DNA of 64,000 nt from Halalkaliarchaeum desulfuricum (GTDB lineage Archaea > Halobacteriota > Halobacteria > Halobacteriales > Haloferacaceae). This document shows, in pieces, positions 24,533-46,911 of the stretch. Where the stretch lies: NCBI RefSeq assembly GCF_002952775.1, contig NZ_CP025066.1, positions 434,001-498,000 of the forward strand, given 5' to 3'. Positions within the stretch are counted from its first letter, which is position 1; every line of letters starts with the position of its first letter. The translations under genes were made by a program, and so were the position numbers. The notes beneath the pieces are model-generated. The model saw only the letters and a list, made by a program, of their open reading frames with translations. It did not search any database and was not told where the DNA came from.

Positions 24533-25198
24533 TCACTCCACCCGTTCTTTGTCGGGATCGACGATCGTCATGCCGATGAGCCGCGTGAGGCCACGGCGAA
24601 GCCGCCCACTTGCGGCAGCAGGAGAGATGCCCAGTTCGTCCGCGAGTTCGACAAGCGAAATTCCCCGGGGTTCTTCGAAGTAACCGCGGTCATAGGCCGT
24701 CACGAGCGCCTCGTGCTGTTCGGCGGTCAGGCCGTAGCCGTCGTCGTGCTCCCGCTCGCTGATCTGGTGGAGTTCCAGCACGTCGAAGGTAAAGGAGTTC
24801 TCCCTGGCGTACTCCCAGATCTCCGCCAGCACCTCGCGGTTGGGGAGCTGCCAGCGTTCGATCCAACCATCGGAAAACGACCTGGCGTCCAGCGACATCC
24901 CACCGACCTCAGTGACTTTCGGGGCGATGAGCTTCGCATTGTCGGTGAAGATGATACCGTACACGAGTTGATCACCGTAATCGGACATCAGCTTGGATTC
25001 TGCGACCGTATGATCCTCCTCGAGGATCTCGCCGATCGGCTCGTCGAGACTCCCCTCGAACACGATGAAGTACATGTTGTGCTCGGGATCGGTCGCGACC
25101 TCCGGAAGTACCCTGACGTCGCCGTCCGAGAGCGTCCGGATGGTATGAGAGAGGGCCATATCCGGATGAGAGAAATGGATCTTCGTGATGGTACTCAT
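24533..25198 (-). CDS. HTH-10 regulator next to the one-carbon locus
   Basis: 221 residues. The N-terminal ~150 residues are a haloarchaeal sensor-type domain beginning MSTITKIHFSHPDMALSHT. The C-terminal LTAEQHEALVTAYDRGYFEEPRGISLVELADELGIS...RLRRGLTRL is a clear HTH_10 domain. It reads away from the core-MetE gene and sits at the edge of the methyl-transfer cluster, so it is a candidate regulator of that cluster, but no site was matched. Two TTTCACTAG copies (24470-24478, 24490-24498) lie just past its 3' end. Confidence 0.85.
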   Translation of the reverse strand: MSTITKIHFSHPDMALSHTIRTLSDGDVRVLPEVATDPEHNMYFIVFEGSLDEPIGEILEEDHTVAESKLMSDYGDQLVYGIIFTDNAKLIAPKVTEVGGMSLDARSFSDGWIERWQLPNREVLAEIWEYARENSFTFDVLELHQISEREHDDGYGLTAEQHEALVTAYDRGYFEEPRGISLVELADELGISPAAASGRLRRGLTRLIGMTIVDPDKERVE

Positions 25199-25318: not shown

Positions 25319-26347
25319 TTATGCCGTCTCGACTTCACCGGCGTCCATGGCCGCCTCGACGGCTTCGACGGCCTCGACCATGTTCTCGAGCTTTTCGCGG
25401 GCGATCGGTCGCTTCACCGGCTTGAGCCCGCAGTCGGGTGTGATCGTCAACTGTTCGGGCGGGACGAGCGACACCGCCTCCTCGATCCGGGCGCGGATCT
25501 CCTCGATCGAGTCGACGTCCCTGTCCTGAGGATCGACGACCCCGAACCCAATGTCCACGTCGCCGTCCCACGCTGCGAGCACGTCTGCCGGGTCGTCGGC
25601 GTCGTCGCTCGCGAACTCCAGATCCACCTCGTCGACCGGAAACGAGAACATCTCCGGGGCGAGGTTGTCGTAGTTGCCCGAACAGACGTGAACGCCGAGC
25701 CGAACGTCGTCCGGCACCTCCTCGGCGATCCGCGAGAGGCTCTCGTGGGCAAGCTCAGAATGCGGTGAGATCCCCAGCCCCGGTTCGTCGATCTGGATCC
25801 ACTCGACGCCGGCGTCCACGAGCCGCGCGACTTCCGCGGCAACCAGTTCCGCCAGGTCCGCTGTGAGCTCTCCGACGTCGTCGTACGCCTGCGGCTGGCT
25901 GAACGACGCGAGCGTGAACGGCCCCGTGACGGTTACCTTGACCGGGCAGTCGGTGACCGACGCGGCGAACCGGTAGTCGTCGACCAGCCACGGCTCGCTC
26001 GAGGAGACCTCGTCGACGATCGTCGGCATCCCTGTGTTCCAGCCGGTTCCGTCCCCGCCGCCGTCCTGCTCCATGTTGTCGATGAACCGCGCGAAGTACT
26101 CGATCATCCCCTCCCGACGCACCTCCCCGTCGGTGACGACGTCCAGCCCCATCCGGTCGAAGATGTTCACGGCGGCCCGACTGGCGTCGTCGAGCGCCTC
26201 CTCGACGGTCCCCTCGGGGACCGATCCGTCGGCGTGGGCGTCCTCGATCTCGGGAAGCCAGGCCGGCCGAGGGTAACTGCCGACGACTGTCGTCAGAAGG
26301 AAACTCTCCGTTTCGTGATCGGGGGGACGGAATCGTTCACGTGTCAT
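25319..26347 (-). CDS. Core methionine synthase (MetE C-terminal-type)
   Basis: 342 residues, equal to the catalytic C-terminal half of cobalamin-independent MetE, without the N-terminal half. Zinc/homocysteine ligands are in place: H220 and C222 (GVHVCSGN), E244 (DLEFA) and C306 (PDCGLK). The start VGSYPRP is typical. Stand-alone core-MetE proteins of methanogens and some bacteria take the methyl from methyl-corrinoid instead of methyl-THF-glutamate. Being beside a methyl-corrinoid cluster, that is a likely donor here, though haloarchaea often carry tandem metE-like genes elsewhere. The wide AT-rich spacer upstream carries its promoter. Confidence 0.85.
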   Translation of the reverse strand: MTRERFRPPDHETESFLLTTVVGSYPRPAWLPEIEDAHADGSVPEGTVEEALDDASRAAVNIFDRMGLDVVTDGEVRREGMIEYFARFIDNMEQDGGGDGTGWNTGMPTIVDEVSSSEPWLVDDYRFAASVTDCPVKVTVTGPFTLASFSQPQAYDDVGELTADLAELVAAEVARLVDAGVEWIQIDEPGLGISPHSELAHESLSRIAEEVPDDVRLGVHVCSGNYDNLAPEMFSFPVDEVDLEFASDDADDPADVLAAWDGDVDIGFGVVDPQDRDVDSIEEIRARIEEAVSLVPPEQLTITPDCGLKPVKRPIAREKLENMVEAVEAVEAAMDAGEVETA

Positions 26348-26684: not shown

Positions 26685-27647
26685 CTACTCTTCGAGCTCT
26701 TCGTTGAGCCGCGGGACGACCTCGTGGAGGTCGGCGACGACTGCGTAGTCGGCCTTCTGCATGATCGCGGCTTCCGGATCGGTGTTGATCGCGATCACGT
26801 TCTCGCTGCCCTTGGCACCGACCCAGTGCTGGACCGCACCGCTGATGCCGGCCGCGATGTACACCTCGGGGGCGATTTTCGCGCCGGTCTGTCCGATCTG
26901 GTCGTCGTGGGGCCGCCAGCCTTCGTTGACGGCCGCGCGGGTCGCGCCGACCGTCCCGGTGAGTTTGTCCGCGAGTGCCTCGAGCTGGGCGAACTCCTCC
27001 TCGCCGCCGACACCGCGACCGCCACCGATGACGACGCGAGCCTCCGACAGGGGGATGCCTTCCATGTCGGACTCCTCCTGACGAACGACGCGCACCGCGA
27101 CGTCCTCGTCGTCGAGTTCGGGCGCGAACGGCTCCACGGCAGGGTCACTCTCGGCCTCGGCGGGTTCGGCGGACACCTCGTGGGGAACGACAGTGAGCAG
27201 CTTGACGTCCGCCTCGAGTTCCGCGTGTTCGATGAGGCTGCCACCCCAGCGCTGGCGGGTGATCCCGTACACGTCACCGGCCTCGACCTCGGTACAGCTC
27301 GTGGCCATCGGCACGTCGAGCTTCGTCGCGAGATGTACGAGCACTTCGTGGCCGCGATCGCTACCCGGAGCGACGACCGTCCCTGCCGACAGCTCCTCGA
27401 CCAGTTGGGCGAGACTCTCCGCGTAGCCTTCCGGCGCGTAGGCGTCCAGCAGGTCGTGCTCGATCGCACACACCTGGTCGACACCGTACGCCGAGAGGTC
27501 GTCCGCGATGTCTTCTGCGCCGTCACCGAACGCGGCGGCGACGAGCTGTTCGTCCTCCTGTATCGCGACGTCCCGCGCGAACGTGACCGTCTCCAGGGAG
27601 ACGTCATCGACCGCGCCGGCGTCGTGTTCGACGAGCGTGAGTACCAT
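26685..27647 (-). CDS. etfA: Electron transfer flavoprotein, alpha subunit
   Basis: 320 residues. The C-terminal FAD domain is unmistakable: GGGRGVGGEEEF, GATRAAVNEGWRPHDDQIGQTG, then YIAAGISGAVQHWVG and NTDPEAAI. It forms a heterodimer with EtfB and takes electrons from the dimethylglycine dehydrogenase encoded just upstream, passing them to a membrane ETF:quinone oxidoreductase not in the window. The start follows the etfB stop with no spacer. Last gene of a three-gene operon. A Glu-rich insertion (about 165-200) is typical of haloarchaeal versions. Confidence 0.96.
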   Translation of the reverse strand: MVLTLVEHDAGAVDDVSLETVTFARDVAIQEDEQLVAAAFGDGAEDIADDLSAYGVDQVCAIEHDLLDAYAPEGYAESLAQLVEELSAGTVVAPGSDRGHEVLVHLATKLDVPMATSCTEVEAGDVYGITRQRWGGSLIEHAELEADVKLLTVVPHEVSAEPAEAESDPAVEPFAPELDDEDVAVRVVRQEESDMEGIPLSEARVVIGGGRGVGGEEEFAQLEALADKLTGTVGATRAAVNEGWRPHDDQIGQTGAKIAPEVYIAAGISGAVQHWVGAKGSENVIAINTDPEAAIMQKADYAVVADLHEVVPRLNEELEE

Positions 27648-28412
27648 TTACACCACCTCCAGGTCATCGAGCACTTCGACGACGTCCACGGCCGCCTCGG
27701 GAGTGTCCCCGAGCACTTCCGCGGGACTTTCGTCCCGTTCGGGCACCTCGAGTTCGACCTTCCGCACGTCGGTGACGTCGGCCGGCTCGGCGCCGCTGCG
27801 GTCGACGTCCGTCTGGCGGGCCTGCATTCGGCTCCGCATCGACGGGTACCGGGGAGTGTTTACACCCTCCTTCACGGTGACGACGGCGGGCATCGGCACC
27901 TCGAAGACGTTGTTGCCGCCGGGCACCTCCCGCTTTGCGATCACGGTGTCGCCGTCGACCTCGACGTCCTTGATCCCGGTGACGACGGGAACGTCGAGCT
28001 GGTTCGCCACGCGGATGCCGACCTGGTAGTTCTGGGCGTCGGCTGACTCGTTGCCGAAAAACATCAGGTCGTACTTCGGCTCCCCGTCCTCGTCGCTGAC
28101 GGCGTCGGCGATCTCGCGGGCTGTCGAGATCGGACCCCACTCGTGGTCGCCGGCCTCGAGCAGCTTCGCCTCGTCGACACCCATCGCGACGCCGGTGCGG
28201 AGCTGCTCGGTGGCGTCCTCCTCGCCGAGCGTCAGCACCGTCGACGTGCCGCCGTGCTCCTCGACGAGTTGGACGGCCGCCTCGACGGCACACTCCTCGT
28301 GCGGGCTGATGGTGTAGCCGATGCTGCTTGCATCGACGTCTTGCTTGTCGTCGGTCAGTACGATCTTTGCGCCCGTGTCGGGCACGCGCTTGATACAGGC
28401 TATAGTTTCCAT
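27648..28412 (-). CDS. etfB: Electron transfer flavoprotein, beta subunit
   Basis: 254 residues from the ATG ending at 28412 (METIACIKRVPDT, the standard EtfB start; a longer frame to 28463 is rejected). AMP-binding and recognition-loop features include NPxD-like SPHEECAVEAA and the GNESADAQNYQVG segment, and DRSG...VRKVELEVP near the C-terminus. Partner of EtfA, which begins at the next base. The 64-nt gap from the dehydrogenase gene supports one transcript. Confidence 0.95.
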   Translation of the reverse strand: METIACIKRVPDTGAKIVLTDDKQDVDASSIGYTISPHEECAVEAAVQLVEEHGGTSTVLTLGEEDATEQLRTGVAMGVDEAKLLEAGDHEWGPISTAREIADAVSDEDGEPKYDLMFFGNESADAQNYQVGIRVANQLDVPVVTGIKDVEVDGDTVIAKREVPGGNNVFEVPMPAVVTVKEGVNTPRYPSMRSRMQARQTDVDRSGAEPADVTDVRKVELEVPERDESPAEVLGDTPEAAVDVVEVLDDLEVV

Positions 28413-31816: not shown

Positions 31817-33769
31817 ATGAGTGACGAACCGACTGTGCGATTTTCTCCCTGGGAGACGAGCGTCGACGTCGAGGAGGGAACGACCGTTCTCGAGGCCGCC
31901 GACCGGGCAGGTCTGTCGATCGAAAGTCTGTGTGGCGGCGAGGGTCTCTGTGGCACCTGCAAAGTCGTCGTCGACGACGGCGCGGACTGTCTGTCCGCCG
32001 TCACGGACGCAGACGAACTACTGCTCTCCGAAGAGCAACTCGAATCGGGCTACCGACTCTCCTGTCGTTCGGACGTCGAATGTGGCCCGGTCGACGTCAC
32101 GGTTCCGAACGTCTCGCAAAACACCGGCGGCGTCGTCCTCACCGAAGGCAGAGAACTGGAGGTCGATCTCGATCCCGTGGTCACGAACTACCACCTCGAG
32201 CTGTCGCCGCCGTCGCTTTCGGACAACACGGCGGACCTCGAACGTGTGGGGGAAGCGCTCAAAGAAAACTACGAAGTATCGATCGAAGAGATCGATCGGG
32301 TCGTCCATCAGGAGCTGCCGAACCTGATGCGCGGTGCGGAGGTCGAGGACAAACTCCACGCGACGGTGACGGTGTACGACGACGAGGAGATCATCGACGT
32401 CACCCCGGGATGGGACGAGACGATGTACGGGTTGGCTATCGACATCGGGACGACCACGATCGCCGTCTATCTCGTCGATCTCCGGACCGCCGACCGCGTC
32501 GCGGTGAGTTCGCGGATGAACCCACAGAGCACGTTCGGCGGCGACATCATGAGCCGGATGCGACACACTCGACGAAGCGAGAACGGTCGCGAAGAGCTCC
32601 AGGACGCGATCGTCGACGGTGTAAACGAACTGGTCGACGAGGTGGTCGAGGAAGCCGAAATCGACCCCGATAACGTTTACGAGGCGGTGTTCGTCGGGAA
32701 CACCGCGATGCATCACCTCTTTCTGGGGATCGATCCCCACTACGTCGCCGGCTCCCCGTACGTGGCGGCCAACCACGCCCCCGTCACCGTCAAGGCCCGG
32801 GAGCTGGACATCGACATCAACCCGGCCGGCTACCTCTACTGGCTCCCGATAAGCGGCGGGTGGGTCGGGCCGGACAAGGTGTCGGTGCTTCTGGTGTCCG
32901 AGCACCACAAACGCGAGGAACTCACCGTCTGTGTCGACATCGGAACCAACGGCGAGATTTCGGTCGGGAACAGCGAACGGATGTGGTCGACCTCCGCGCC
33001 GGCCGGTCCCGCACTCGAGGGCGCGGAGATCACACACGGTGTGCGCGCCCGGGACGGCGCCGTGGAGTTCGTCACGATCGACGACGAGACGCTGGAACCC
33101 GACCTCGAGGTCATCGGCGACGAGCCGCCGATCGGTATCTGTGGGTCCGGGATCATCGACGTCCTCGCGGAGCTGTTCGAGGCGGGCGTGATCGACCAGC
33201 GGGGACAGTTCCAGGAGGAACTGCTGGATCACCCGCGGCTCAGGCGCAACGCCCACGATGTCCTCGAGTACGTGCTCGTTTTCGCAGACGAGTCCGGGAT
33301 CGACGGTGACGTCGTCGTCACCCAGAACGACCTCCGGGAGATCCAGCAGGCGAAGGCAGCGATCCAGGCCGGTACCCGCGTGTTGATGGACGAACTCGAC
33401 ATCGACACCGTCGACAGGGTCGTTCTCGCGGGGGCGTTCGGCAACTACATCGATCCGGAGTCCGCGATGACGGTCGGACTGTATCCCGACGTCGACTTCG
33501 ACGCGGTCGAATCCCTGGGTAACGCCGCCGGGATCGGGGCACAGCTCGCGCTGTTGAACCGCGACAAGCGAGCGGAGGCCATGGAGATCGTCGACCACGT
33601 CGAGTACTTCGAGATCGCCGGGACCGACGTGTTCCGGAACAACTTCATGGAGTCGATGTACGTCCCCCACCAGCGGATCGAACTGTACCCCAGTGTCCGG
33701 GAACGGATCGGTGAGTTCGACGAAGGGCGGGGTGTCGTCGTGCGCGAGGGACGCAGCGCCGAACGATGA
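31817..33769 (+). CDS. RACo-type corrinoid protein reductive activator (DUF4445)
   Basis: 650 residues from the ATG at 31817 (an upstream-extended frame at 31532 crosses the cupin gene and is rejected). N-terminal plant-type [2Fe-2S] ferredoxin with C39-x5-C45-x2-C48 and C83; linker (about 95-200); then an ASKHA-fold actin-like ATPase with LAIDIGTTTIAVYL and a second VDIGTNGEI motif plus LAGAFGNYIDPE. This is the layout of RACo/AcsV proteins that use ATP to re-reduce inactive cob(II)alamin to cob(I)alamin in corrinoid methyltransferase systems. It overlaps the DUF1638 gene by 4 nt. The likely target is the corrinoid protein at 44361. Confidence 0.93.
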   Translation: MSDEPTVRFSPWETSVDVEEGTTVLEAADRAGLSIESLCGGEGLCGTCKVVVDDGADCLSAVTDADELLLSEEQLESGYRLSCRSDVECGPVDVTVPNVSQNTGGVVLTEGRELEVDLDPVVTNYHLELSPPSLSDNTADLERVGEALKENYEVSIEEIDRVVHQELPNLMRGAEVEDKLHATVTVYDDEEIIDVTPGWDETMYGLAIDIGTTTIAVYLVDLRTADRVAVSSRMNPQSTFGGDIMSRMRHTRRSENGREELQDAIVDGVNELVDEVVEEAEIDPDNVYEAVFVGNTAMHHLFLGIDPHYVAGSPYVAANHAPVTVKARELDIDINPAGYLYWLPISGGWVGPDKVSVLLVSEHHKREELTVCVDIGTNGEISVGNSERMWSTSAPAGPALEGAEITHGVRARDGAVEFVTIDDETLEPDLEVIGDEPPIGICGSGIIDVLAELFEAGVIDQRGQFQEELLDHPRLRRNAHDVLEYVLVFADESGIDGDVVVTQNDLREIQQAKAAIQAGTRVLMDELDIDTVDRVVLAGAFGNYIDPESAMTVGLYPDVDFDAVESLGNAAGIGAQLALLNRDKRAEAMEIVDHVEYFEIAGTDVFRNNFMESMYVPHQRIELYPSVRERIGEFDEGRGVVVREGRSAER

Positions 33770-34581
33770 GCGATCTACCCCGACAGGACGCACTCGGAAT
33801 CGTCGCCTGTGAAACCCTGTATGCGGAACTCGACCGGTTCGCACCCGATGCGACGGTTCGGTACGTCCCCCAGGAGTATCACGAGTTTCCGGTGAACGTT
33901 CCCCGGAACGCAGAGATTGTCGAGGTTATCGAGCGACACGTCCGGGAACTCGAAGACGCCGATATCGACCGGATCCACCTCCTGTACGACGCCGACGACG
34001 AGGCGCTGTCCGGGATCCAGACGGAACGGGTACCGCTGTACCGCAGCCGGGCCGGCGACTGCGTTTCGGTGTTCCTCCACGGGATCGAACCGCTCGAATT
34101 CGGCGAGCGGAAGGCCAGCGGGACGTACTATCTCACACGCGGGTGGATCGACCGCGGCCTCGACGCCCACAAACTGTACCGGGGATTCCTCGGGGAAGGG
34201 GAGCAACTGATCGAACAGTTCGACCGCGCGGCAGCCGACACCGACGAACTCACGATTACCTGGCCGGACGCCGACGGGTTCGAACGCGCAGTCGAACGCG
34301 GGCAGGGGATGTCCCGGGAGGCGATCGGGCGCTTCTTCCACGATGTCGTCGGGTTCTACGACCGGGTGGTTCTGGTCGACACCGGCACGTGCCGCGAGTT
34401 CCACCGGGAGTACGCCGAGTCGTTCCGGGAGTTCGTTGCAGAACTCTCCGCCGAACACGGCGACGGACACGACGTGACGCTCTCGGTCGTCGACGGCGAC
34501 ACGTCCGTGCTGGAATCGATGCTCGAATCGGATGGAGAAACCGAACACCTCGAACGGTATCCAGCCGGAAAACCCATATAG
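33766..34581 (+). CDS. DUF1638 protein
   Basis: 271 residues matching, by the ALGIVACETLYAEL start and the later GHEKLY-like DAHKLYRGFLGEGE and VLVDTGTC segments, the DUF1638 family. Members occur beside MttB-type methyltransferases and their activators in methanogens and bacteria. C17 and the Cys in DTGTC may be functional. The gene overlaps the RACo stop (ATGA), so the products are likely made together. The role is not established; a helper in corrinoid activation or insertion is the best guess from position. Confidence 0.78.
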   Translation: MSDLPRQDALGIVACETLYAELDRFAPDATVRYVPQEYHEFPVNVPRNAEIVEVIERHVRELEDADIDRIHLLYDADDEALSGIQTERVPLYRSRAGDCVSVFLHGIEPLEFGERKASGTYYLTRGWIDRGLDAHKLYRGFLGEGEQLIEQFDRAAADTDELTITWPDADGFERAVERGQGMSREAIGRFFHDVVGFYDRVVLVDTGTCREFHREYAESFREFVAELSAEHGDGHDVTLSVVDGDTSVLESMLESDGETEHLERYPAGKPI

Positions 34582-34760: not shown

Positions 34761-35591
34761 ATGACACGCGACGACATCACAGCCTTACTCACCGATCCGC
34801 GCTTCGAGTTGTTACCGTTCGACAGCTTCTACGATCAGGCCGACCAGCTGCCGGAGGGATCGAAGATTGCGGTGACCGCCTCGCCGGATCTGGGAGTCGA
34901 CAGAACCGTCGAGGTGTCGCTCGACGCCGTCGAGCGCGGCTTCGAGGTGACCCCCCACATCGCCGCCCGGGGTGTAAGCGACGTCGACCACCTCCAGGAC
35001 ATCGCCGACCAGTACGAGGAGGCAGGGATCTCGGATCTGTTCGTCGTCGGCGGGGACAACGAGGAACCGGTCGGCGAGTTCGAGTCGGCCCACGACGCGC
35101 TCGTGGCGCTTGCGGAACACGGCTACGACTTCGAGGAAGTCGGCATCGGCGGCTACCCCGAGGGCCACCAGAAGATCGACGACGACACCCTCGCGGAGGC
35201 GCTCGAGAAGAAATCTCCGTATGCCACGTACGCGGTCACCCAGCTGTGTTTCGACCCCGAAGCGATCATCGAGTGGACCGACGAAGTCCAGGATCGGGGG
35301 ATCGACCTCCAGGTACACGTCGGAATACCCGGCGTGGTGAAGTACCAGCGGCTGTTGCAGATCTCCCGGAAGGTCGGCGTCGGCGACTCGATCGGCTTCC
35401 TGCGCAAGACCACCGGCATCATCGGCTTCGTCAAACAGCTCGTCGGATCGCGCGGCAACTACACCCCCGACAGGCTCGTCGAGGAACTCGCGCCGTACGG
35501 TGCGGATCCGGATTACCCGATCGAAGGCGTCCACCTGTACACGTTCAACCAGGCCGCCGATACCGAGAAGTGGCGACGCGAACTGGTGTAG
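34761..35591 (+). CDS. metF: Methylenetetrahydrofolate reductase family
   Basis: 276 residues, slightly shorter than bacterial MetF (~290). The TIM-barrel features are visible: VTASPDLGVD (early strand), HIAARGVSD, VVGGDN, GGYPEGH, and TQLCFDPEAIIEW, the last being the FAD/folate signature. It interconverts 5-methyl-THF and 5,10-methylene-THF. In this cluster the oxidising direction is likely, carrying methyl groups from the corrinoid route to methylene-THF. The electron acceptor is not evident; no MetV or HdrA-type partner lies nearby. It is followed by the MtrH-like gene 107 nt later. Confidence 0.88.
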   Translation: MTRDDITALLTDPRFELLPFDSFYDQADQLPEGSKIAVTASPDLGVDRTVEVSLDAVERGFEVTPHIAARGVSDVDHLQDIADQYEEAGISDLFVVGGDNEEPVGEFESAHDALVALAEHGYDFEEVGIGGYPEGHQKIDDDTLAEALEKKSPYATYAVTQLCFDPEAIIEWTDEVQDRGIDLQVHVGIPGVVKYQRLLQISRKVGVGDSIGFLRKTTGIIGFVKQLVGSRGNYTPDRLVEELAPYGADPDYPIEGVHLYTFNQAADTEKWRRELV

Positions 35592-35698: not shown

Positions 35699-36619
35699 AT
35701 GTTCACGTTCGAAGCGGAGCAAGAGGTGTACGACATTAATGGCGTCAAGATCGGTGGGCAACCCGGCGAGCATCCCACCGTGATGGTCGGCAGTATTTTC
35801 TACAAGGGCGACTCCCTGCTCGAAGACCCGAAAACCGGCGAGTTCGACGAGGAGGGTGCCCGCGAGGCGATCCGGATGGTCGAGGAAACCTCCGAGAAGA
35901 CTGGCAACCCCGCAATGCTCGACGTGATCGGCGACACGCCCGAGGCGCTGATCAAACACGTCGACTTCGTCGCCGAGGAGACCGACATCCCGATCTTCAT
36001 GGACGGCCCGACCCCAAATATTCGATCGAAGGCCGCCAAACACGTCGGCGAGATCGGCATCCAGGACCAGATCATCTACAACTCGATCGAGTCCAGCACG
36101 AAGGAGGTCGACACCGAGATCGAGGCGATCCAGAACGCCGGCATCGACGCCGCCGTCCTGCTCAGCATCGACACCAAGAACCTCACCCTGCAGGGCCGGT
36201 TCGACGCGCTCGACAAGAACCTCGAGGTCGCCGAGGAGGCGGGCATCTCGAAGCCGATCGTCGACCCCGCAGTCATCGACATCCCCGACTCCGGGTTCGC
36301 CGCGAAGGCGATCCACGAGATCAAGGACCGGTACGGCATCCCCGCCGGCTGCTCCCCGCACAACGAAGTGATCCGCTGGGAGATGGAAGACCCACTGAGC
36401 CCGGACACCAAGAAGCTCCGCCAGGCGGTCGCCAACTCCGTCATCGTCCACCTCGGGGCCGACTTCAACCTCTATGGAACGATCCACAGTGCTCCCGAGA
36501 TGTACTCCGTCGTCTCGCAGGCCGACGCCTACGTCGGCTACGCGGCCCAGATGACCGAGCGCCGCCGCCCCTCCCAGGATCACCCGCTGTACAAGATCTT
36601 CCGCAAGGGCGGAAACTGA
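35699..36619 (+). CDS. MtrH/MtgA-like methylcorrinoid:tetrahydrofolate methyltransferase
   Basis: 306 residues from the ATG at 35699; the longer frame from 35246 overlaps metF and is rejected. It is of the MtrH family (start FEAEQEVYDINGVKIGGQPGE, then MVGSIFYKGD, IPIFMDGPTP, AGCSPHNEVIRW). MtrH is the soluble methyltransferase of the methanogen Mtr complex; free-standing relatives such as MtgA and MtoA move methyl groups between a corrinoid protein and a pterin. No other mtr genes are present and the neighbours use folate, so methyl-corrinoid to THF transfer is the likely reaction. Confidence 0.88.
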   Translation: MFTFEAEQEVYDINGVKIGGQPGEHPTVMVGSIFYKGDSLLEDPKTGEFDEEGAREAIRMVEETSEKTGNPAMLDVIGDTPEALIKHVDFVAEETDIPIFMDGPTPNIRSKAAKHVGEIGIQDQIIYNSIESSTKEVDTEIEAIQNAGIDAAVLLSIDTKNLTLQGRFDALDKNLEVAEEAGISKPIVDPAVIDIPDSGFAAKAIHEIKDRYGIPAGCSPHNEVIRWEMEDPLSPDTKKLRQAVANSVIVHLGADFNLYGTIHSAPEMYSVVSQADAYVGYAAQMTERRRPSQDHPLYKIFRKGGN

Positions 36620-36666: not shown

Positions 36667-38784
36667 TCAGTCGTCCGCGGGCGCGTCGTCCGGTGCCTCC
36701 GCGGGTTCGATCCCGATCTCGACCTCCGCGGCCGCGGCCTTGTACTCGGGGATCTTCGCCCGCTCGTCGAGCACGTCGTTCGTGAGCCGGTTCGCCGAGG
36801 CCGCTGCGAAGTGTGGCGTCGTCCAGACGACACCCTCTTTGATATCCTCAGTGACCTGCGCCAGGAGCGTGATCTCGCCGCGGCGGGACTTGAGCTTCAC
36901 GTACTCGCCGTCTTCGATGCCGTACCGCTCGGCATCGTTCGGATGGATGTCGACGAAGTTCTCTGGGTGCTGCCGGTTCAGCGTCGGCGACCGCCGACTC
37001 ATCGTCCCCGTGTTGTAGTGCTCCTCCAGCCGCGCGGTCGTCAACACGAGGGGGTACTCCTCGTCCGGCGTCTCCTTTGGCGGTTGGTGGGTGACGCCCT
37101 CGATCTGCCCGAGGCCGTTCTCCGTGTCGAACTCATCTTCATAGAGGAACGTGTCCCCTTCGTCGCCGGGTTCATAACAGGGCCACTGGAGCCCTTCCTC
37201 GCCCAGCAGGTCGTAGGTCATCCCGTGGTAGATCGGGCAGACCTGGCGCAGTTCCTCGAATACCTCCTCGACGTCATCGAACCGGAACTTCTCATCGCCG
37301 AACAGCCGGGAGCCGACCTCCATCATGATGTCGAGGTCGTGTTTCGTGTTCTCGTGAACCTTCTCGACCCCCCGCATCCGCTGGACGCGACGGTCGGTGT
37401 TGGTGACAGTGCCGCCGCGTTCGGCCCACGTCGTCGCCGGCAGGATCACGTCGGCCAGCTTGGCGGTTTCGGTCATGAAGATGTCCTGGACGACCATGAA
37501 CTCCAGTTCCTGGAGGCGCTCTTCGACCCGGTTTCCGTCGGGCTCGCTCATGATCGGGTTCTCCCCCATCACGTACAGCCCGTGGACGGACTTTCCGGCC
37601 TCGTGTGAGATCTCCACGTTCGTCAGGCCCGGTTCCGGAGGCACTTCGAAGCCCCACTCCTGCTCGACACTCTCGCGGGCCTCGTCGTCGTCGACGAGCT
37701 GGTAGCCCGGAAGCACGTTCGGCATGGCGCCGACGTCGCAGGTCCCCTGGACGTTGTTCTGGCCGCGAAGCGGATTGACGCCCGTCCCCGGCCGGCCGAG
37801 GTTGCCGGTGATCAACGCCAGGTTGATCTCGTTTTGGACGTTGTCGACTCCGCAGGTGTGCTGGCTCATCCCCATCCCGGTGAAGATGGCGGCGTTGTCG
37901 GCGGTGGCGTACTTCTCTGCGGCTGCTTCGATGTCCGAAAGCGGGACGCCACACTCCTCGGCGGCAGCCTCCTTGTCGAAGTCCTCGAGCGTCTCCGTCA
38001 GGTCGTCGAACCCCTCGGTGCGCTGTTCGATGAACTCCTCGTCGATCCAGCCGTTCTCCAGGATCGTCTTGAGAACGATGTTCAAGAGCGGGATGTCGGT
38101 CCCGGGCTTCAGCTGGAGGTGCATGTGCCGGTCGGTCTCGTCGATCTTGAACGACCGGGTCGTCTTGTTGGCGTGGGGATCGACCTGGATCACCGTCGCC
38201 CCCTCGAGCACTGCCTGCCTGAAGTACTGGCTGTTGGCGATCGGGTGCTGCTCGCCCGGGTTCGCACCCTGGATCCACAGCACGTCCGCCTCGTCGCGGA
38301 GGTCCGCCATACTGTTTGTCATCGCGCCGGCGCCCAGGCTGGTCCGCAGCGCCCACACTGTCGACGCGTGGCACATCCGCGTGCAGTTGTCGACGTTGTT
38401 GGTGCCGTAGCGCCGCGCGAGCTTCTGGAGGAGGTAGTTCTCCTCGTTCATCACCTTCGAGGAGCCGAAAAAGCCCATCGCGTCCGGCTCGTGCTCCTCG
38501 CGGATCCGCTGCATCTCCGAAACCACCAGGTCGTACGCCTCCTCCCAGGTGGCCTCGCGGAACTCGCCGTCCTCCCGGATCAGCGGGTCGGTGAGTCGGT
38601 CTTCGTGGTCGACGACCTCCGTCGCGGCACCGCCCTTGATGCAGACGCGCCCCTCGTTGACCGGGGCCTCGCCCCACGGCATGAACCGCATGTCGCCCGG
38701 CTCCGCTCCGGGTTGGACGGAGATACCACAGCCGACGCCACAGTACGGACAGATCGTCTTCACCGGCTCGTCGTCACTGGACAT
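36667..38784 (-). CDS. fdhA: Formate dehydrogenase, catalytic subunit (Mo/W, Cys-type)
   Basis: 705 residues, the size of FdhF/FdhA. N-terminal [4Fe-4S] ligands C12, C15, C19 and C48; bis-MGD binding domains follow; active-site C138-H139 in NCTRMCHAS replaces the selenocysteine of FdhF. C-terminal molydopterin dinucleotide domain (VKLKSRRGEI) is intact. Start is the ATG ending at 38784, not the GTG 9 nt upstream. Converts formate to CO2. No beta/gamma subunit, FdhD or ferredoxin gene is adjacent, so the electron partner is unknown. It converges with the MtrH-like gene with 47 nt between. Confidence 0.92.
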   Translation of the reverse strand: MSSDDEPVKTICPYCGVGCGISVQPGAEPGDMRFMPWGEAPVNEGRVCIKGGAATEVVDHEDRLTDPLIREDGEFREATWEEAYDLVVSEMQRIREEHEPDAMGFFGSSKVMNEENYLLQKLARRYGTNNVDNCTRMCHASTVWALRTSLGAGAMTNSMADLRDEADVLWIQGANPGEQHPIANSQYFRQAVLEGATVIQVDPHANKTTRSFKIDETDRHMHLQLKPGTDIPLLNIVLKTILENGWIDEEFIEQRTEGFDDLTETLEDFDKEAAAEECGVPLSDIEAAAEKYATADNAAIFTGMGMSQHTCGVDNVQNEINLALITGNLGRPGTGVNPLRGQNNVQGTCDVGAMPNVLPGYQLVDDDEARESVEQEWGFEVPPEPGLTNVEISHEAGKSVHGLYVMGENPIMSEPDGNRVEERLQELEFMVVQDIFMTETAKLADVILPATTWAERGGTVTNTDRRVQRMRGVEKVHENTKHDLDIMMEVGSRLFGDEKFRFDDVEEVFEELRQVCPIYHGMTYDLLGEEGLQWPCYEPGDEGDTFLYEDEFDTENGLGQIEGVTHQPPKETPDEEYPLVLTTARLEEHYNTGTMSRRSPTLNRQHPENFVDIHPNDAERYGIEDGEYVKLKSRRGEITLLAQVTEDIKEGVVWTTPHFAAASANRLTNDVLDERAKIPEYKAAAAEVEIGIEPAEAPDDAPADD

Positions 38785-38895
38785 TTCTATCACTCCAGAA
38801 GGTAACCGGTTTTAGTTTCTCCCGTCCCGTCGTCCCCGGGCTGGCGATCGTGTGTGGATGTCGAGTCATACGTCTCAACCTGCGACTCCAGAGAC

Positions 38896-39516
38896 ATGAA
38901 TCTTTCTCGGGGAAACGTTCACCCCGCTGGACCCCTTGCCCGCCGTATGGAACTCTCGCCCTCGCTGGTCGCCGAGAAAGCCGCCGAGTACCGGAGCGTG
39001 GAACCGCTGTACGCAGTCGAGGCCGACCACCTCGAGATCATGCCGAAGACGTTCGACTCCGGAGAGTACGGCCGCCGCGACGCCCAGTGGCCGGTGCGAT
39101 GGTACTACCGCCGTCACCTCGGGGCGTTTCCGGACCGCGACCGACGCGACGCCGAGAGCCGGTTCCGGGAGAACGACTTCGAAGCGGTGATGGAGTCGAT
39201 CGAGGCCGCGAAACGATCGGAGTCGGCCGCCGACGCCGTCGGTGAGCTCACGGCGCTTTCGGGCGTCGACGTCGGCGTCGCCTCGGCACTCCTCTTTTTC
39301 AGTGATCCCTCACAGTACGTCGCCGTCGGTGCCCGGGAGTGGAACACCCTCGGAACGGCCGGAGAGCTTTCCGAGCCGTACCCGGATCCACTCTCCCCGT
39401 CCGACTACGAACGGTATCTCGGCGCGTGTCGCCGGGTCGCCGATCGTGTCGACTGCGACCTGTGGACGCTTTACCGGGCGCTGTGGCGACTGTCGGACGA
39501 GTCGACAGCCCCATAA
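38896..39516 (+). CDS. Uncharacterised protein inside the one-carbon locus
   Basis: 206 residues from the ATG at 38896; an internal ATG at 38947 (MELSPSLVAEK) is an equally good start. Rich in Arg, Trp and Tyr (WPVRWYYRRHLG) with a helix-hairpin-helix-like LTALSGVDVGVASALLFFSDP and YVAVGAREWNTLG near the middle, which resembles DNA-glycosylase/HhH-type folds of haloarchaeal hypothetical proteins. It sits between the formate dehydrogenase and formate-THF ligase genes but faces the other way. No catalytic motif assigned; it may be unrelated to the pathway. Confidence 0.72.
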   Translation: MNLSRGNVHPAGPLARRMELSPSLVAEKAAEYRSVEPLYAVEADHLEIMPKTFDSGEYGRRDAQWPVRWYYRRHLGAFPDRDRRDAESRFRENDFEAVMESIEAAKRSESAADAVGELTALSGVDVGVASALLFFSDPSQYVAVGAREWNTLGTAGELSEPYPDPLSPSDYERYLGACRRVADRVDCDLWTLYRALWRLSDESTAP

Positions 39517-39548: not shown

Positions 39549-41258
39549 CTAGAAGAGGCCGGAGATGGTGCCGTCTGCGTCGATGTCCATGTCGGCGGCG
39601 GCGGGACGACCCGGCAGGCCGGGTAGGTCCATCACGTCGCCAGTTAGCACGACCAGGAAGCCGGCGCCAGCAGACGGGTACACTTCACGCACGTCAAGCG
39701 TCCAGTCTTTGGGGACGCCCTTCTTCGAGGGGTCGTCGCTGAACGAGTGGAACGTCTTCGACATCACGATCGGCATGTCGTCCAGACCCAGCTCTTCCAT
39801 CCGCTCGATGTCGTCTTCGGCCCCGTCGACGTAGTTGACGCCGTCGGCGCCGTAGATCTCCGTCGCCACCGTCTCGACCTTCGATTTGATCGACTCTTCG
39901 GTGTCGTACAGGAACTCGAAGTCCGCCTCGCTCTCCTCGACGGCACCGGTGATCTTCTCGACCAGTTCCACGCCGCCTTCCCCGCCCTCGGAGAAGACGT
40001 TCGAGACGCCCGCCGGGATCCCCTGGGATTCACAGTGGTCGACGACCGCTTCGATCTCCTCGTCGGTGTCCTGCGGGAACCGGTTGATGGAGACGACGAC
40101 CGGCACGCCGAACTGCTGGAGGTTCGCGGCGTGCTTGTCGAGGTTCTCCAGGCCGGCCTCGACGGCCTCGACGTCCGGCTCTTCGAGTTCGTCCATGTCG
40201 GCGGGCCACATGTCCTTGCCGTGGTACTTGAGCGCACGCACGGACGACACCAGCACGATCGCCGACGGCTCGACGTCGCCGAAGCGGCTCACCACGTTGA
40301 GGAACTTCTCGGCGCCCAGGTCCGAGCCGAAGCCCGCCTCGGTGAGCACCCAGTCGGCCATCCCGAAGGCGGCCTGGTCGGCGATCAGCGAGTTGGTGCC
40401 GTGAGCGATGTTCGCGAACGGCCCCGCGTGCACCAGCGCCGGCGTTCCCTCCAGCGTCTGCACCACGTTCGGCTTCAAAGCGTCGCGAAGCAGGATCGTG
40501 GCGGCGCCGGTTGCCTCGATGTCGTCGACGGTGACCGGCTCGCCTTCCTCGTCGTAGGCGACGATGATCCGGCCGACGCGTTCCTTGAGGTCTTCAAGCG
40601 AGTCGGCAAGCGCCAGCACGGCCATCAGTTCGGAGGCGGCCGTAAGCAGGAAGCTCGCCTCGCGAGTCTGACCGCCCGACTCGCCGCCCAGCCCGATCAC
40701 CATGTTGCGCAGCGCGCGGTCGTTCATGTCGATGGCGCGCTTCCAAGAGATGTTGTTCGGGTCGATGTTGAGCTCGTTGCCCTTCGAGATGTGGGCGTCC
40801 AGCATCGCGGAGATGAGATTGTGCGCCGCAGTCAGCGCGTGAATGTCGCCCGTGAAGTGGAGGTTGATGTCCTCCATGGGCAGCACCTGCGAGTAGCCGC
40901 CGCCGGCGGCGCCGCCCTTGATACCGAAGACCGGTCCCAGCGAGGGCTCGCGGATGGCGATCATCGCCTGCCGGCCCGTGTGGTTGAACGCCTGGCCCAG
41001 GCCGACGGTGGTAACCGTCTTGCCCTCGCCCATCGGCGTCGGCGTCATTCCCGTGACCAAAACGAGGTTCGAATCCTCCGACCGCTGGTCTTTGAGACGC
41101 TCGACCGCATCCATCGAGAGTTTGGCCTTGTAGTCGCCGTACAGCTCCAGGTCGTCCTCGGTGAGACCGAACGGCTCGACCACGTCAGTGATGTGTTCCA
41201 GATCGGCGTCCTGTGCGATTTCGTAGTCCGTCGGGAATCCGCTATCGTCTTCAGACAT
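39549..41258 (-). CDS. fhs: Formate-tetrahydrofolate ligase
   Basis: 569 residues from MSEDDSGF (ATG ending 41258). P-loop PTPMGEGKTVTT near 70, REPSLGPVFGIKGGAAGGG, and GDIHALTAAHNL are family signatures, and the C-terminal GDVMDLPGLP is complete. It makes 10-formyl-THF from formate with ATP; in the oxidising direction it yields ATP by substrate-level phosphorylation. It lies between formate dehydrogenase and the methyltransferase, which fits a methyl-to-CO2 route. The gene is on the minus strand, 268 nt after the end of the MttB gene, so it probably has its own promoter. Confidence 0.95.
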   Translation of the reverse strand: MSEDDSGFPTDYEIAQDADLEHITDVVEPFGLTEDDLELYGDYKAKLSMDAVERLKDQRSEDSNLVLVTGMTPTPMGEGKTVTTVGLGQAFNHTGRQAMIAIREPSLGPVFGIKGGAAGGGYSQVLPMEDINLHFTGDIHALTAAHNLISAMLDAHISKGNELNIDPNNISWKRAIDMNDRALRNMVIGLGGESGGQTREASFLLTAASELMAVLALADSLEDLKERVGRIIVAYDEEGEPVTVDDIEATGAATILLRDALKPNVVQTLEGTPALVHAGPFANIAHGTNSLIADQAAFGMADWVLTEAGFGSDLGAEKFLNVVSRFGDVEPSAIVLVSSVRALKYHGKDMWPADMDELEEPDVEAVEAGLENLDKHAANLQQFGVPVVVSINRFPQDTDEEIEAVVDHCESQGIPAGVSNVFSEGGEGGVELVEKITGAVEESEADFEFLYDTEESIKSKVETVATEIYGADGVNYVDGAEDDIERMEELGLDDMPIVMSKTFHSFSDDPSKKGVPKDWTLDVREVYPSAGAGFLVVLTGDVMDLPGLPGRPAAADMDIDADGTISGLF

Positions 41259-41526: not shown

Positions 41527-42984
41527 TCAGTAGGCGGTTTCGGTGGCTTCCGCGACGTACGCCTCGAGGTCCTCCTCGATCTCCTCGTCGATCGGCGGTC
41601 GTTCGTACTCCTCGAGCCGGGTTTGCACGCGATCGTGCCCCATCTCGAACCCGGTCTTTTCGCCGTCCTCCTCCCAGTCACCGTGGGAGCGCTTGTCGAA
41701 CACCTCGGTGCGGAAATGCTCGTCGCGAGAGTGCGTCAGCGTGTGTCGCTTGCTGAGGTAGTGGCCCGCGGGTTCCACTTCCGAGATGAGGTCGAACGCG
41801 AAGCTCTCCTTGTCGATCTGGAACCCCTCGTTGATCCGTTCGAGGTTCCGGATCAGCTCGCAGTCGAGGACGAACTTCTCCGGGGAGATCGCCGAGTACG
41901 ACTCCAGGATGCCACACGAGTGGAGCACGAAGTCGATCCCCGAAAACTCCGCGGCGGTGAGCGTCATCATCGATTCGAAGCCGGCCTGGTAGTCGACCGA
42001 CTTGGAGTCGGAGAGGCCGCCGCCGCCCCGTGACGGGACGCCGTAGTACCGCCCCATCTGCCCGGCAAACGAGATGAACAGCGCCGACTCGGGGCTACCG
42101 ATCGACAGCGAGCCGTACCGGACGTCGATGTTCGAAGAGGGGACGCCGTACACGACGGGCGTGCCCGGATTGACGAGCTGTGCCAGGGTGATCCCCGTGA
42201 GGTTCTCCGCGTTCGCCTGTGCCATCGCGCCCGAAAGCGTCGCCGGCCCCGACGCGCCGGCCATCGTGAACGAGGAGACGACCGCGGGCTGGCCGTTCTT
42301 CGCCATCGTGAGCAGCCCGCCCAGCATCTTCTTGTCGAGGCTCCGGGGTGGGACCGTGTTGACCAGCGCTGCCGCGTACGGCTTCGACAGGTCCGGATCC
42401 TCGTGTGCAATGCCGACCATCTCCAGGCCGGCCTCGGCCCGGTCTTCGCCGTACGCCGACACCATCGGCACCTTGTCGGTGAGCGTCAGCGACCGCTTTA
42501 CCATCTCCAGGTGTTTGACCTCCTGGTCGACGTCGTTCGGCTCACAGACGTTGTAGCCGGCGGAGTTGAGCACGTCCTCGGTCTGGACGAGCTTCATCAT
42601 CGTCTCGTAGTCCTCGATCGTCGACTTCCGACGACCGTCCTCGAACGTCCGGACGTTCGGGGCGCCGTAGCCCGGCGCACGCAGCGGCTCCCCGGAGTCG
42701 CCGCCGATCGTGACGTTGTTATCCGGATTGCGCGCGTGGAGCGTGAACGAGGAGGGGGCCGTTTCGACGGCGTCCTCGATCACGTCGCGGGGGATGGTCA
42801 CGACGTTGTCCTCGTGAACCTCGGCGCCGTGTTCCTCGAGGACCTCGATCGCCTCCTCGTGGTTCAGCTGGATCCCGATCTCCTCGATGATGCGGATCGC
42901 TGCCTCGTGGAGCGCTTCCTCACCTTCCTCCGTGAGTCTGTCGAAGGATGGCACCGGCTGTGTTTCCGTATCGTATTCTTTCAC
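41527..42984 (-). CDS. MttB-superfamily methyltransferase without pyrrolysine (MtgB-like)
   Basis: 485 residues, the normal length for the trimethylamine methyltransferase family. The reading frame contains no in-frame amber codon and ends in TGA, so it is a non-pyrrolysine member. Signatures include GRRKSTIEDYETMM, VNTVPPRSLDKKMLGGLL, TLAQLVNPGTPVVYG and PSRGGGGLSDSKSVDYQAG. Non-Pyl members characterised in bacteria demethylate quaternary amines, including glycine betaine (MtgB), proline betaine and carnitine, onto a corrinoid protein. With dimethylglycine dehydrogenase nearby, glycine betaine is the best guess here. On the minus strand with folD 84 nt upstream. Confidence 0.93.
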   Translation of the reverse strand: MKEYDTETQPVPSFDRLTEEGEEALHEAAIRIIEEIGIQLNHEEAIEVLEEHGAEVHEDNVVTIPRDVIEDAVETAPSSFTLHARNPDNNVTIGGDSGEPLRAPGYGAPNVRTFEDGRRKSTIEDYETMMKLVQTEDVLNSAGYNVCEPNDVDQEVKHLEMVKRSLTLTDKVPMVSAYGEDRAEAGLEMVGIAHEDPDLSKPYAAALVNTVPPRSLDKKMLGGLLTMAKNGQPAVVSSFTMAGASGPATLSGAMAQANAENLTGITLAQLVNPGTPVVYGVPSSNIDVRYGSLSIGSPESALFISFAGQMGRYYGVPSRGGGGLSDSKSVDYQAGFESMMTLTAAEFSGIDFVLHSCGILESYSAISPEKFVLDCELIRNLERINEGFQIDKESFAFDLISEVEPAGHYLSKRHTLTHSRDEHFRTEVFDKRSHGDWEEDGEKTGFEMGHDRVQTRLEEYERPPIDEEIEEDLEAYVAEATETAY

Positions 42985-43068: not shown

Positions 43069-43962
43069 TCAGGGAAGTTCGATGTCGACGTCGTGCTGGA
43101 GGCTCGCGGCTTTGACCGTGTTGTACAGGAGCATCGTGATCGTCATGGGTCCGACGCCGCCTGGCACGGGCGTGATCGCGGAGGCTTTCTCCTTGGCGGA
43201 GTCGAATTCGACGTCGCCAACCAGTTCGTAGCCCTTCTCGTTGTCTGCGTCCACGCGGTTCACTCCGACGTCGATGACGACCGTGTCCTCGGTGAGCATC
43301 GACCCGTCGACGAACTCCGGGACACCCACCGCGGCGATGACGATGTCGGCGTTTCTCGTCTTCTCGGCCGTGTTTTTCGTCCGCGAGTGACAGACGGTGA
43401 CCGTGGCGTTGCCCAGTTTCGTCTTCTGGATCAGCAGGTTCGCCATCGGCTTGCCCACGATGTTCGACCGACCCACGATCACCGCGTCTTTCCCTTCGGT
43501 GTCGACGCCGGCCGATTCGAGGAGTTTCTGGACACCGAACGGCGTACAGGGTTTGAATCGGGCGTTACCCGCCACCAGTTTGCCGACGTTTTCCGGGTGG
43601 AAGCCGTCGACGTCCTTCATCGGGTCGATGTACTCCAGGACCGCACGCTCGTCGACGTGGTCCGGTACGGGCATCTGGACGAGGATGCCGTGTACCGCGG
43701 GATCCTCGTTGAGCTCGTCGATCTTCTCGAACAGGACGTCCGCGGGCGCGTCCGGATCGATCTCGTGGTGGAAGCTCTCGATGCCGATCTGCTCGCAGGC
43801 CTTCTGCTTCATCGAGACGTACGTCTCGCTTGCGGCGTCGTCGCTCATCAACACCGTCGCCAGCCCCGGCGTGACGCCCTCCTCCTCGAGGGTCCCGATG
43901 CTCGATTCCAGCTCCGACTTGATGCGATCGCCGACCTCGTTTCCGTCGATTATCTCTGTCAT
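43069..43962 (-). CDS. folD: Methylene-THF dehydrogenase/methenyl-THF cyclohydrolase
   Basis: 297 residues. Catalytic Y48-x3-K52 (YVSMKQKA), DVDGFHPENVGKL, the NADP-binding VIVGRSNIVGKPMANLL and the PVPGGVGPMTI signature are all intact. It converts 5,10-methylene-THF to 5,10-methenyl-THF and on to 10-formyl-THF with NAD(P). It links MetF and the dimethylglycine dehydrogenase products to Fhs. It is the first gene of the minus-strand folD-mttB pair and diverges from the corrinoid-protein gene across a 398-nt regulatory spacer. Confidence 0.95.
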   Translation of the reverse strand: MTEIIDGNEVGDRIKSELESSIGTLEEEGVTPGLATVLMSDDAASETYVSMKQKACEQIGIESFHHEIDPDAPADVLFEKIDELNEDPAVHGILVQMPVPDHVDERAVLEYIDPMKDVDGFHPENVGKLVAGNARFKPCTPFGVQKLLESAGVDTEGKDAVIVGRSNIVGKPMANLLIQKTKLGNATVTVCHSRTKNTAEKTRNADIVIAAVGVPEFVDGSMLTEDTVVIDVGVNRVDADNEKGYELVGDVEFDSAKEKASAITPVPGGVGPMTITMLLYNTVKAASLQHDVDIELP

Positions 43963-45291: not shown

Positions 45292-46911
45292 ATGAGTCAA
45301 CAACAATCGCAAGGCTGGATGGAGAAGTTCACGAGCGAACTGGACTACGTCGTATTCGGTATCGGCGTGGTCGTGGCAGCACTGGCGGTCGCGGCGTTCG
45401 TCCTGCGCGAGGAGGCGGCGTCAGCGGCGATGTGGGACGTAAACGACTTCCTGTGGACGAACCTGGGCTGGGCGTACCTGCTCATCATGTTCGTCCTGGT
45501 GCTGATGGTCTTCTTCCTGATACTCGGGCCATGGGGGAACATCAGGCTCGGGAAGGAAGACGAAGAACCAGAATTCACGTTCCTGTCGTACTTCGTGATG
45601 CTGTACTCGGCAGCGATCGCCGCAGGGATCGTGTTCTGGGGCCCCACGGAGGGCGTCGTCTTCTTCGGTGACCCCTTCGAGCAGGGAATCGGGTACCTCG
45701 GCTTCCCAGGAGAGGGTGATGCAGCAGTCGGTGCGATGCAGTACACCTTCTTCCACTGGGGCATCTCGGCGTGGTCGGCCTACGTCGTGATGGCAATCCC
45801 GATCGCCTACCTCGCGTACCGGTACGACGCGCCGCTGCGCATTTCGACGGTGATCGCCCCGTGGGTCGGGCTGGACAACCTCGACAGCGTCTGGGCGAAG
45901 ATCATCGACATCGTCGCAGTGTTCGCCACCATCGGCGGCGTCGCGACGACCCTTGGACTCGTCGGCTCCCAATTCCTCGTGGGGTTGGAGTACGCCTACG
46001 GGATCGAGCTGGGCGATATGGGGACGGTCATCACCATCACCGGATTGACCATCGCGTTCACGATCTCGGTGGCGGCCGGGATCCAGAAGGGGATCCGCCG
46101 GATATCCTACTTCAACATGGCGCTGTTCGCGCTGTTGATGGTCGTCATCTTCTTCGTCGGCCCGACCAGGTTCATCATGACCACCGGGACCGAAGCGCTC
46201 GGCGGCTACATCAACGACTTCATCAACATGAGCCTCTACACCGAGGCATCCATGGTGGATCCGGTTGGCTTCGTCGGCGGCTGGACCGTCTTCTACTGGG
46301 CATGGTGGTTCTCGTGGGCGCCGTTCGTCGGGCTGTTCATCGCCCGCATTTCCCGCGGTCGGACGGTCAGGCAGGTCGCCTTTACGGGCGTCTTCGCCGC
46401 GACCGGCGTGACCATCCCGTGGTTCGCGACGATGGGCGGCACGTCGATCTACATGGAGATGAACAACATCGCCCCGATCCTCGACGTGTATGCGGACTTC
46501 GGCTTCGACGAAGCCGTGGTCGGCTTCCCGATGTTCGAGGCCCTGCCGCTCGGCGGTGTGTTCATGTTCCTGTTCCTGGTGTTGATCACGACGTTCTTCA
46601 TCACCTCGGCCGACTCGTCGACGCTGGCCCTGGGGATGCTCACCACCGGCGGCGCTGAGAGCCCCTCGACGGTCAACCGCGTCATCTGGGGAGCGCTCAT
46701 CGGACTGCTGGCCTCGATCTTGATGGTCGTCGGCGGCGTCGACGCGCTGCAGGCCGCAGCGATCATCACCGGCGGACCGTTCGGCCTCATCCTGCTTGTC
46801 GCCGTGGTGGCGATGGCCGTCCTGTTCGGGAAGCGGCGTCCGATCTTCATGCAGGAAAGTGACGACTCGCTACCCGGCACGTCGGTGGACTTCGTCGAAT
46901 CCGACGACTGA
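45292..46911 (+). CDS. BCCT-family transporter, divergent glycine motif
   Basis: 539 residues with about 12 membrane spans. The aromatic substrate box FYWAWWFSWAPFVGLFIAR and following RISRGRTVR are classic for betaine/choline/carnitine transporters. In the span where Na+-coupled members carry GMGIG, this protein has SAAIAAGI (106-113). It may therefore differ in coupling, for instance exchange of substrate and product as in CaiT; this is inference. It lies just downstream of the corrinoid-protein gene and most likely imports the methylated amine used by the cluster. No long osmosensing tail: the C-terminus is short and acidic. Confidence 0.93.
   Translation: MSQQQSQGWMEKFTSELDYVVFGIGVVVAALAVAAFVLREEAASAAMWDVNDFLWTNLGWAYLLIMFVLVLMVFFLILGPWGNIRLGKEDEEPEFTFLSYFVMLYSAAIAAGIVFWGPTEGVVFFGDPFEQGIGYLGFPGEGDAAVGAMQYTFFHWGISAWSAYVVMAIPIAYLAYRYDAPLRISTVIAPWVGLDNLDSVWAKIIDIVAVFATIGGVATTLGLVGSQFLVGLEYAYGIELGDMGTVITITGLTIAFTISVAAGIQKGIRRISYFNMALFALLMVVIFFVGPTRFIMTTGTEALGGYINDFINMSLYTEASMVDPVGFVGGWTVFYWAWWFSWAPFVGLFIARISRGRTVRQVAFTGVFAATGVTIPWFATMGGTSIYMEMNNIAPILDVYADFGFDEAVVGFPMFEALPLGGVFMFLFLVLITTFFITSADSSTLALGMLTTGGAESPSTVNRVIWGALIGLLASILMVVGGVDALQAAAIITGGPFGLILLVAVVAMAVLFGKRRPIFMQESDDSLPGTSVDFVESDD

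Follow-up and report, generated by a model that had tools for sequence, protein, structure and literature searches.

The window, which is the whole 64,000-nucleotide stretch of Halalkaliarchaeum desulfuricum DNA that was analysed, encodes a 485-residue MttB-family methyltransferase that lies in an unusually complete gene cluster and most probably acts on glycine betaine; there is good support for counting it as a new haloarchaeal corrinoid-dependent quaternary-amine demethylase. This reading draws on the gene families of the cluster, their linkage, their co-occurrence across haloarchaea, and the conservation of residues proposed to bind betaine, all of which were read from sequence.

The frame was located on the minus strand, with a GTG start and 485 uninterrupted codons followed by TGA; reading of the whole frame on this strand gave no in-frame TAG or TAA, and the plus strand of the same interval is broken by a stop codon. 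The open frame without amber and with a TGA end described in the sequence-only reading was thus recovered on re-reading the letters, and the strand was added. The frame is not a chance one, because it matches PF06253 at 506 bits (cut-off 25) over 475 residues (profile positions 24–496 of 500), carries a haloarchaeal coding signature (GC3 0.89, acidic composition), and has a 95%-identical orthologue inside the same gene order in a congener (G001). The GTG start is supported by the orthologue of genome G355, whose ATG (MKEYDTHS...) aligns with the same residue. The whole-length profile match and a TIM-barrel fold place the protein in the MttB superfamily (PF06253/COG5598), and the profile score together with the amber-free frame agrees with its earlier description as a non-pyrrolysine MttB homologue. 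By score, MtgB of Desulfitobacterium hafniense comes first among its solved relatives (9YCE/2QNE, 424 bits, 43% identity), followed by a homologue from Sinorhizobium (4YYC, 284 bits) and the pyrrolysine MttB (7XCL, 170 bits).

A model of the 485-residue protein was produced with AlphaFold2 from an alignment built of window and fetched-locus sequences (mean pLDDT 89.8, pTM 0.89), and its top Foldseek match was MtgB 9YCE (TM 0.93, rmsd 2.2, 42% identity). Docking has led to Y94, N199, R309, H345, and F/Y353 being proposed as betaine-binding residues of MtgB (PMC6855144); in the alignment the 485-residue protein carries Y, N, R, H, and Y there, so that all five positions are conserved. The haloarchaeal orthologues of full-cluster genomes all carry the Y-N-R-H-[FY] set (9/9), as do 27/27 sequences more than 55% identical to MtgB, and it was found in just 2 of 41 MttB paralogues of one Eubacterium genome (G402; 42 MttB homologues, the best of the 41 being ~34% identical to the 485-residue protein). 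Since the 53%-identical paralogues MtcB and MtyB already prefer different quaternary amines (PMC8604678), neither identity nor a docking-derived pocket fixes the substrate.

In an IQ-TREE phylogeny of 76 rows, all haloarchaeal MttBs formed one clade (100/100), within which a subclade of 17 rows contained the 485-residue protein (100/99), and the MtgB clade, including a methanogen homologue (L086), was recovered separately (100/99), with pyrrolysine MttB as the most distant branch. The haloarchaeal clade is nested neither in the MtgB clade nor among the G402 paralogues, which served as a stand-in, as a set with individual enzymes unnamed, for the enzymes that act on carnitine, proline betaine, and gamma-butyrobetaine; an attempt to assign MtcB and MtyB in G402 as the most similar pair failed, as identity reaches 83% in other pairs. 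Placement with MtgB was therefore not obtained, and neither was the grouping with carnitine or proline-betaine enzymes, as represented by this stand-in set, that would have spoken against betaine. As sister of the haloarchaeal clade, the free tree modestly favours the Eubacterium paralogues (95/80), and an AU test does not reject a grouping with the wider MtgB group (p = 0.274). Because the tree does not nest the protein in the MtgB clade, its assignment to betaine is best supported by context and pocket rather than by orthology.

The same corrinoid mechanism could have another or a broader quaternary amine as its main substrate (proline betaine, carnitine, gamma-butyrobetaine, or choline-type compounds), which we consider unlikely. 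Such a substrate would suit a clade of its own that leans to the Eubacterium paralogues in the free tree, and pocket residues vary among paralogues of the same organisms (L002, L004, L006, and L007, where Y94 is replaced by G or F and N199 by S), suggesting a diversified substrate range; against it stand the full MtgB pocket set in the window's subclade, compared with its rarity in G402, and the linked dimethylglycine dehydrogenase, which would be expected for betaine but not for proline betaine or carnitine. On balance, corrinoid-dependent quaternary-amine demethylation is very probably the function of the system, and glycine betaine is probably the physiological substrate. The proposal of a haloarchaeal betaine methyltransferase made in the sequence-only reading is supported by the pocket, the closest structure, and the linked dimethylglycine dehydrogenase, BCCT, and C1 genes, but not by the phylogeny. 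Counting against betaine are the 43% identity to MtgB, partner proteins that fall short of the NCBIfam cut-offs for MtgA and MtgC, and a clade that is not nested in that of MtgB; moreover, some haloarchaea that are not known to use betaine have dimethylglycine oxidase and BCCT genes too (PMC3102087).

The genes of the cluster are listed in Table 1. On the plus strand, the genes for RACo/RamA, DUF1638, MetF, and MtrH/MtgA follow in this order, and then those for MtgC and the BCCT carrier. On the minus strand, the FolD, MttB, and Fhs genes are consecutive with formate dehydrogenase downstream, and farther on lie the genes for dimethylglycine dehydrogenase, ETF beta, ETF alpha, the MetE catalytic domain, and an HTH_10 protein, a possible regulator of the cluster.

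Table 1. Positions of the cluster genes in the window, with the matches that identify them.
Feature	Position	Strand	Basis
HTH_10 (Bat-type) transcription regulator	24533..25198	-	PF04967
MetE catalytic-domain methionine synthase	25319..26347	-	PF01717
ETF alpha subunit	26685..27647	-	PF00766 + PF01012
ETF beta subunit, predicted electron acceptor of dimethylglycine dehydrogenase	27648..28412	-	PF01012
Dimethylglycine dehydrogenase/oxidase, 839 aa	28477..30996	-	Pfam DAO, FAO_M, GCV_T, GCV_T_C
RACo/RamA-type ATP-dependent corrinoid reductive activase	31817..33769	+	PF14574 314 bits, PF17651, PF17650, PF00111
DUF1638 protein, predicted corrinoid-recharging partner	33766..34581	+	PF07796
MetF-like methylene-THF reductase, predicted to run oxidatively on methyl-THF	34761..35591	+	PF02219
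MtrH/MtgA-type methylcorrinoid:tetrahydrofolate methyltransferase	35699..36619	+	PF02007 258 bits; ATG at 35699
Formate dehydrogenase alpha-type molybdoenzyme	36667..38793	-	TIGR01591 above cut-off
220-aa protein	38854..39516		No Pfam or NCBIfam match
Fhs, formate-THF ligase	39549..41258	-	NF010030 above cut-off; downstream of mttB, same strand
MttB-family methyltransferase (MtgB-like, non-pyrrolysine), 485 aa	41527..42984	-	PF06253 506 bits; 43% to MtgB 2QNE/9YCE
FolD, methylene-THF dehydrogenase/cyclohydrolase	43069..43962	-	NF010764 above cut-off; 84 bp upstream of mttB
MtgC-type corrinoid protein, 236 aa	44361..45071	+	PF02607 + PF02310; TIGR02370 above cut-off
BCCT-family transporter (betaine/choline/carnitine/TMA/DMSP class)	45292..46911	+	PF02028 492 bits; TIGR00842 above cut-off

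The corrinoid role suggested earlier for the MtgC-type protein was confirmed by its two Pfam domains and TIGR02370 score; it contains DIHNIG, SAL, and GG cobalamin-binding motifs, and reaches 220 bits with the MtgC model NF047995 (cut-off 310). The MtrH/MtgA-type protein scores 274 bits with the MtgA model NF047990 (cut-off 550), versus 226 bits with the methanogen MtrH model TIGR01114. In terms of these matches, both partners are homologous to MtgA and MtgC and of a different subfamily, and the three components of an Mtg system, a corrinoid protein and an MtrH-type methyltransferase together with MttB, are all encoded. In the RACo/RamA-type protein, the 2Fe-2S, linker, middle, and ASKHA domains are all above their Pfam cut-offs, and a part in corrinoid recharging has been proposed for DUF1638 (PMC12478193). 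The best PDB matches of the BCCT carrier are a TMA transporter, DddT, and BetP, and as BetP scores no higher than the TMA and DMSP carriers, the match does not discriminate the substrate. Whole-length matches of the dimethylglycine dehydrogenase were dimethylglycine oxidase 1PJ5 (480 bits) and human and rat DMGDH (~330 bits); the gene announced as a neighbour of mttB is real, but lies ~10.5 kb away, and in several relatives the distance is ~3 kb. Linkage of the two genes was found in the window, L034, L042, L043, L045, and L224. The unassigned 220-residue protein adjoins formate dehydrogenase in L029, L043, L046, and L223 as well (38–72% identity). An aldehyde dehydrogenase at 61843 was rejected as a betaine aldehyde dehydrogenase, being far below that cut-off.

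Together, the linked genes are predicted to cover each step from betaine uptake to CO2, a full route from betaine to glycine and CO2. Betaine would be taken up by the BCCT carrier and bound in the TIM barrel of MttB, the putative first methyltransferase (MT-I), which would transfer a methyl group to Co(I)-MtgC, giving dimethylglycine and CH3-Co(III)-MtgC. The MtrH/MtgA-like protein would pass the methyl group from Co(III) to tetrahydrofolate, forming methyl-THF, RACo with ATP would recharge accidentally oxidised Co(II), perhaps with DUF1638, and methyl-THF would be oxidised to CO2 by MetF, FolD, Fhs, and formate dehydrogenase. Dimethylglycine dehydrogenase and ETF would convert dimethylglycine to sarcosine and possibly glycine, yielding methylene-THF. 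We infer the substrate, the direction, the pairing of the partners, and operation in an oxygen-respiring cell, as well as folate as the acceptor; folate is preferred over methanopterin because FolD, Fhs, and MetF are in the cluster and the MtgA model outscores the MtrH model.

A gene for a MetE catalytic domain is linked to MttB, MtgC, or RACo genes in the window, in L033 (16742–17755), in L039 (5760–6785), and in L223 (18801–19262), and one might speculate that this protein carries methyl groups from the corrinoid protein to methionine synthesis as a second acceptor. With this linkage, and with one Ruegeria corrinoid protein serving both betaine demethylation and methionine synthesis (PMC12478193), the system could chiefly supply biosynthetic methyl groups (methyl-THF, and methionine via the MetE-domain protein) in place of carbon or energy, but this is very unlikely given the clustered Fhs, FolD, formate dehydrogenase, dimethylglycine dehydrogenase, and ETF, which point to oxidation of the methyl groups. 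A methanogen-type pyrrolysine MttB is ruled out by the missing amber codon and a score below the TIGR02369 cut-off, and a true trimethylamine methyltransferase, as annotation pipelines would name the 485-residue protein, is extremely improbable, TIGR02369 (trimeth_pyl) being its best NCBIfam model but at 340 bits against a cut-off of 525, with pyrrolysine MttB farthest away in the tree. A TAG flagged inside the MttB of L020 during the genome search was merely its stop codon.

Distribution was analysed in 392 Halobacteriales species, in 16 of which MttB was found above cut-off, making it rare. RACo (8/392) and MtrH (6/392) were confined to MttB genomes, and Fhs was above cut-off in 142/392. Co-occurrence of MttB with RACo gave p ~1e-12 by genome and ~1e-6 by genus (6 genera), and with MtrH p ~2e-9 by genome and ~1.5e-4 by genus (4 genera), all uncorrected for kinship. 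MttB, MtgC (PF02607), DUF1638, and RACo occur together in nine genomes (G000, G001, G013, G016, G031, G040, G148, G186, and G355), RACo being seen in the order sample for eight of them and in L029 for G001. Six of the eight order-sample genomes also have MtrH, as does G001, again in L029; the two genomes without it (G016 and G031) are 76–78% complete. The congener G001 keeps the gene order of the cluster with 72–96% protein identity. MttBs of the window's subclade were linked to Fhs in 11 fetched neighbourhoods, and no such linkage was seen in the fetched neighbourhoods of paralogues outside the subclade.

Unexpectedly, eight further MttB genomes (92–100% complete) have no MtgC, RACo, DUF1638, or MtrH: G284 (L042), G308 (L043), G154 (L044), G166 (L045), G159 (L046), G171 (L047), G077 (L226), and G223; a search of these eight for a pterin-binding alternative methyltransferase found none. 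Their MttBs belong to the window's subclade (seven full-length, one truncated) and adjoin Fhs, a fused FolC-FolP, dimethylglycine dehydrogenase, and ETF in varying combinations. The pocket His is replaced by Asn in 6/8, and of the 88 positions that are invariant in MtgB and the full-set proteins, 55 are likewise invariant in this group. Either these proteins dispense with a corrinoid protein or rely on one that escaped recognition, or they no longer catalyse the original reaction. Betaine demethylation with no corrinoid protein involved, the methyl group passing straight to folate, for instance, or to some other acceptor, is unlikely; if true, the haloarchaeal clade would contain a B12-independent derivative alongside the standard B12 system seen in the window.

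Other methyltransferase genes were noted in these genomes. A second corrinoid system in G000 (L220, 7203–14712, and L219, 6744–8758; G000:C1 ~2.493 Mb and 2.567–2.575 Mb) comprises two URO-D-type proteins, two MtgC-like proteins, a pterin-binding (MeTr-like) methyltransferase, RACo, DUF1638, and an MFS carrier, and looks like an O-demethylase-type system; its pterin-binding protein also occurs in G001, G013, G040, and G186. A second MttB paralogue (L002/L028, 8939–10279; G000:C1:1197890; 41–44% identical, pocket F-S-R-H-Y) lies near a gene for a methylmalonyl-CoA-mutase-type B12 domain, with no Mtg genes nearby. Haloarculaceae archaeon H-GB1-1 (G355) has six or more genes of the MttB family (L035, L036, L037, L049, L056, L059, L060, and L064), and the variety of their pocket residues suggests that more than one quaternary amine is used; its strain name is a possible hint at a betaine enrichment, on which no paper turned up in the open literature.

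The D. hafniense system (MtgB DSY3156, with MtgC and MtgA) resembles the haloarchaeal one in fold, the five pocket residues, a non-pyrrolysine enzyme, a corrinoid partner, and an MtrH-type methyltransferase with folate, whereas the haloarchaeal MttB is 43% identical, in a separate clade, and accompanied by genes for dimethylglycine dehydrogenase/ETF and for the predicted full oxidation to CO2. Methanolobus vulcani B1d MV8460 MtgB and the Methanococcoides vulcani homologue (L086) are likewise archaeal and have the Y353 pocket variant Y-N-R-H-Y; MV8460 MtgB is 65% identical to the D. hafniense protein, and a BCCT-type carrier (OpuD) and MtgC adjoin it (PMC6855144), as in the haloarchaeal cluster. 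The methanogen MtgB falls inside the bacterial MtgB clade and feeds coenzyme M, whereas folate is predicted for the separate haloarchaeal clade. In the aerobic marine bacterium Ruegeria pomeroyi, RamA, DUF1638, MetF2, and a BCCT carrier are induced with MtgBCD on betaine (PMC12478193). This system shares with the haloarchaeal cluster an aerobic host, the RamA, DUF1638, MetF2, and BCCT partners, and onward dimethylglycine oxidation (PMC12478193), but has a pterin-binding MtgD where the haloarchaeal cluster has MtrH/MtgA; related Rhodobacterales MttBs that were fetched have G at position 353, not Y/F. MtpB, MtcB, and MtyB of Eubacterium limosum are also non-pyrrolysine MttB-family enzymes with corrinoid and folate partners, and differ in substrates.

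Glycine betaine is a common osmolyte, likely abundant in brines, and haloarchaea are regarded as mainly aerobic. Dimethylglycine oxidases near BCCT carriers were reported for four haloarchaea in a genome survey of 2011, which gave no enzyme for the first demethylation and did not settle whether betaine is used (PMC3102087). Those genes would form the second half of the same pathway, to which the window adds a candidate for the first step. A search of the open literature, subscription papers and preprints aside, turned up no account of a corrinoid betaine demethylase from haloarchaea. In salt-flat metagenomes, mttB has been read as a methanogenesis gene for trimethylamine (PMC9765009); mttB hits in hypersaline metagenomes may partly stem from betaine-demethylating haloarchaea. 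The window would bring a corrinoid methyltransferase system like those of methanogens and acetogens into a mainly aerobic group, as a complete, testable betaine route predicted in a single-contig genome.
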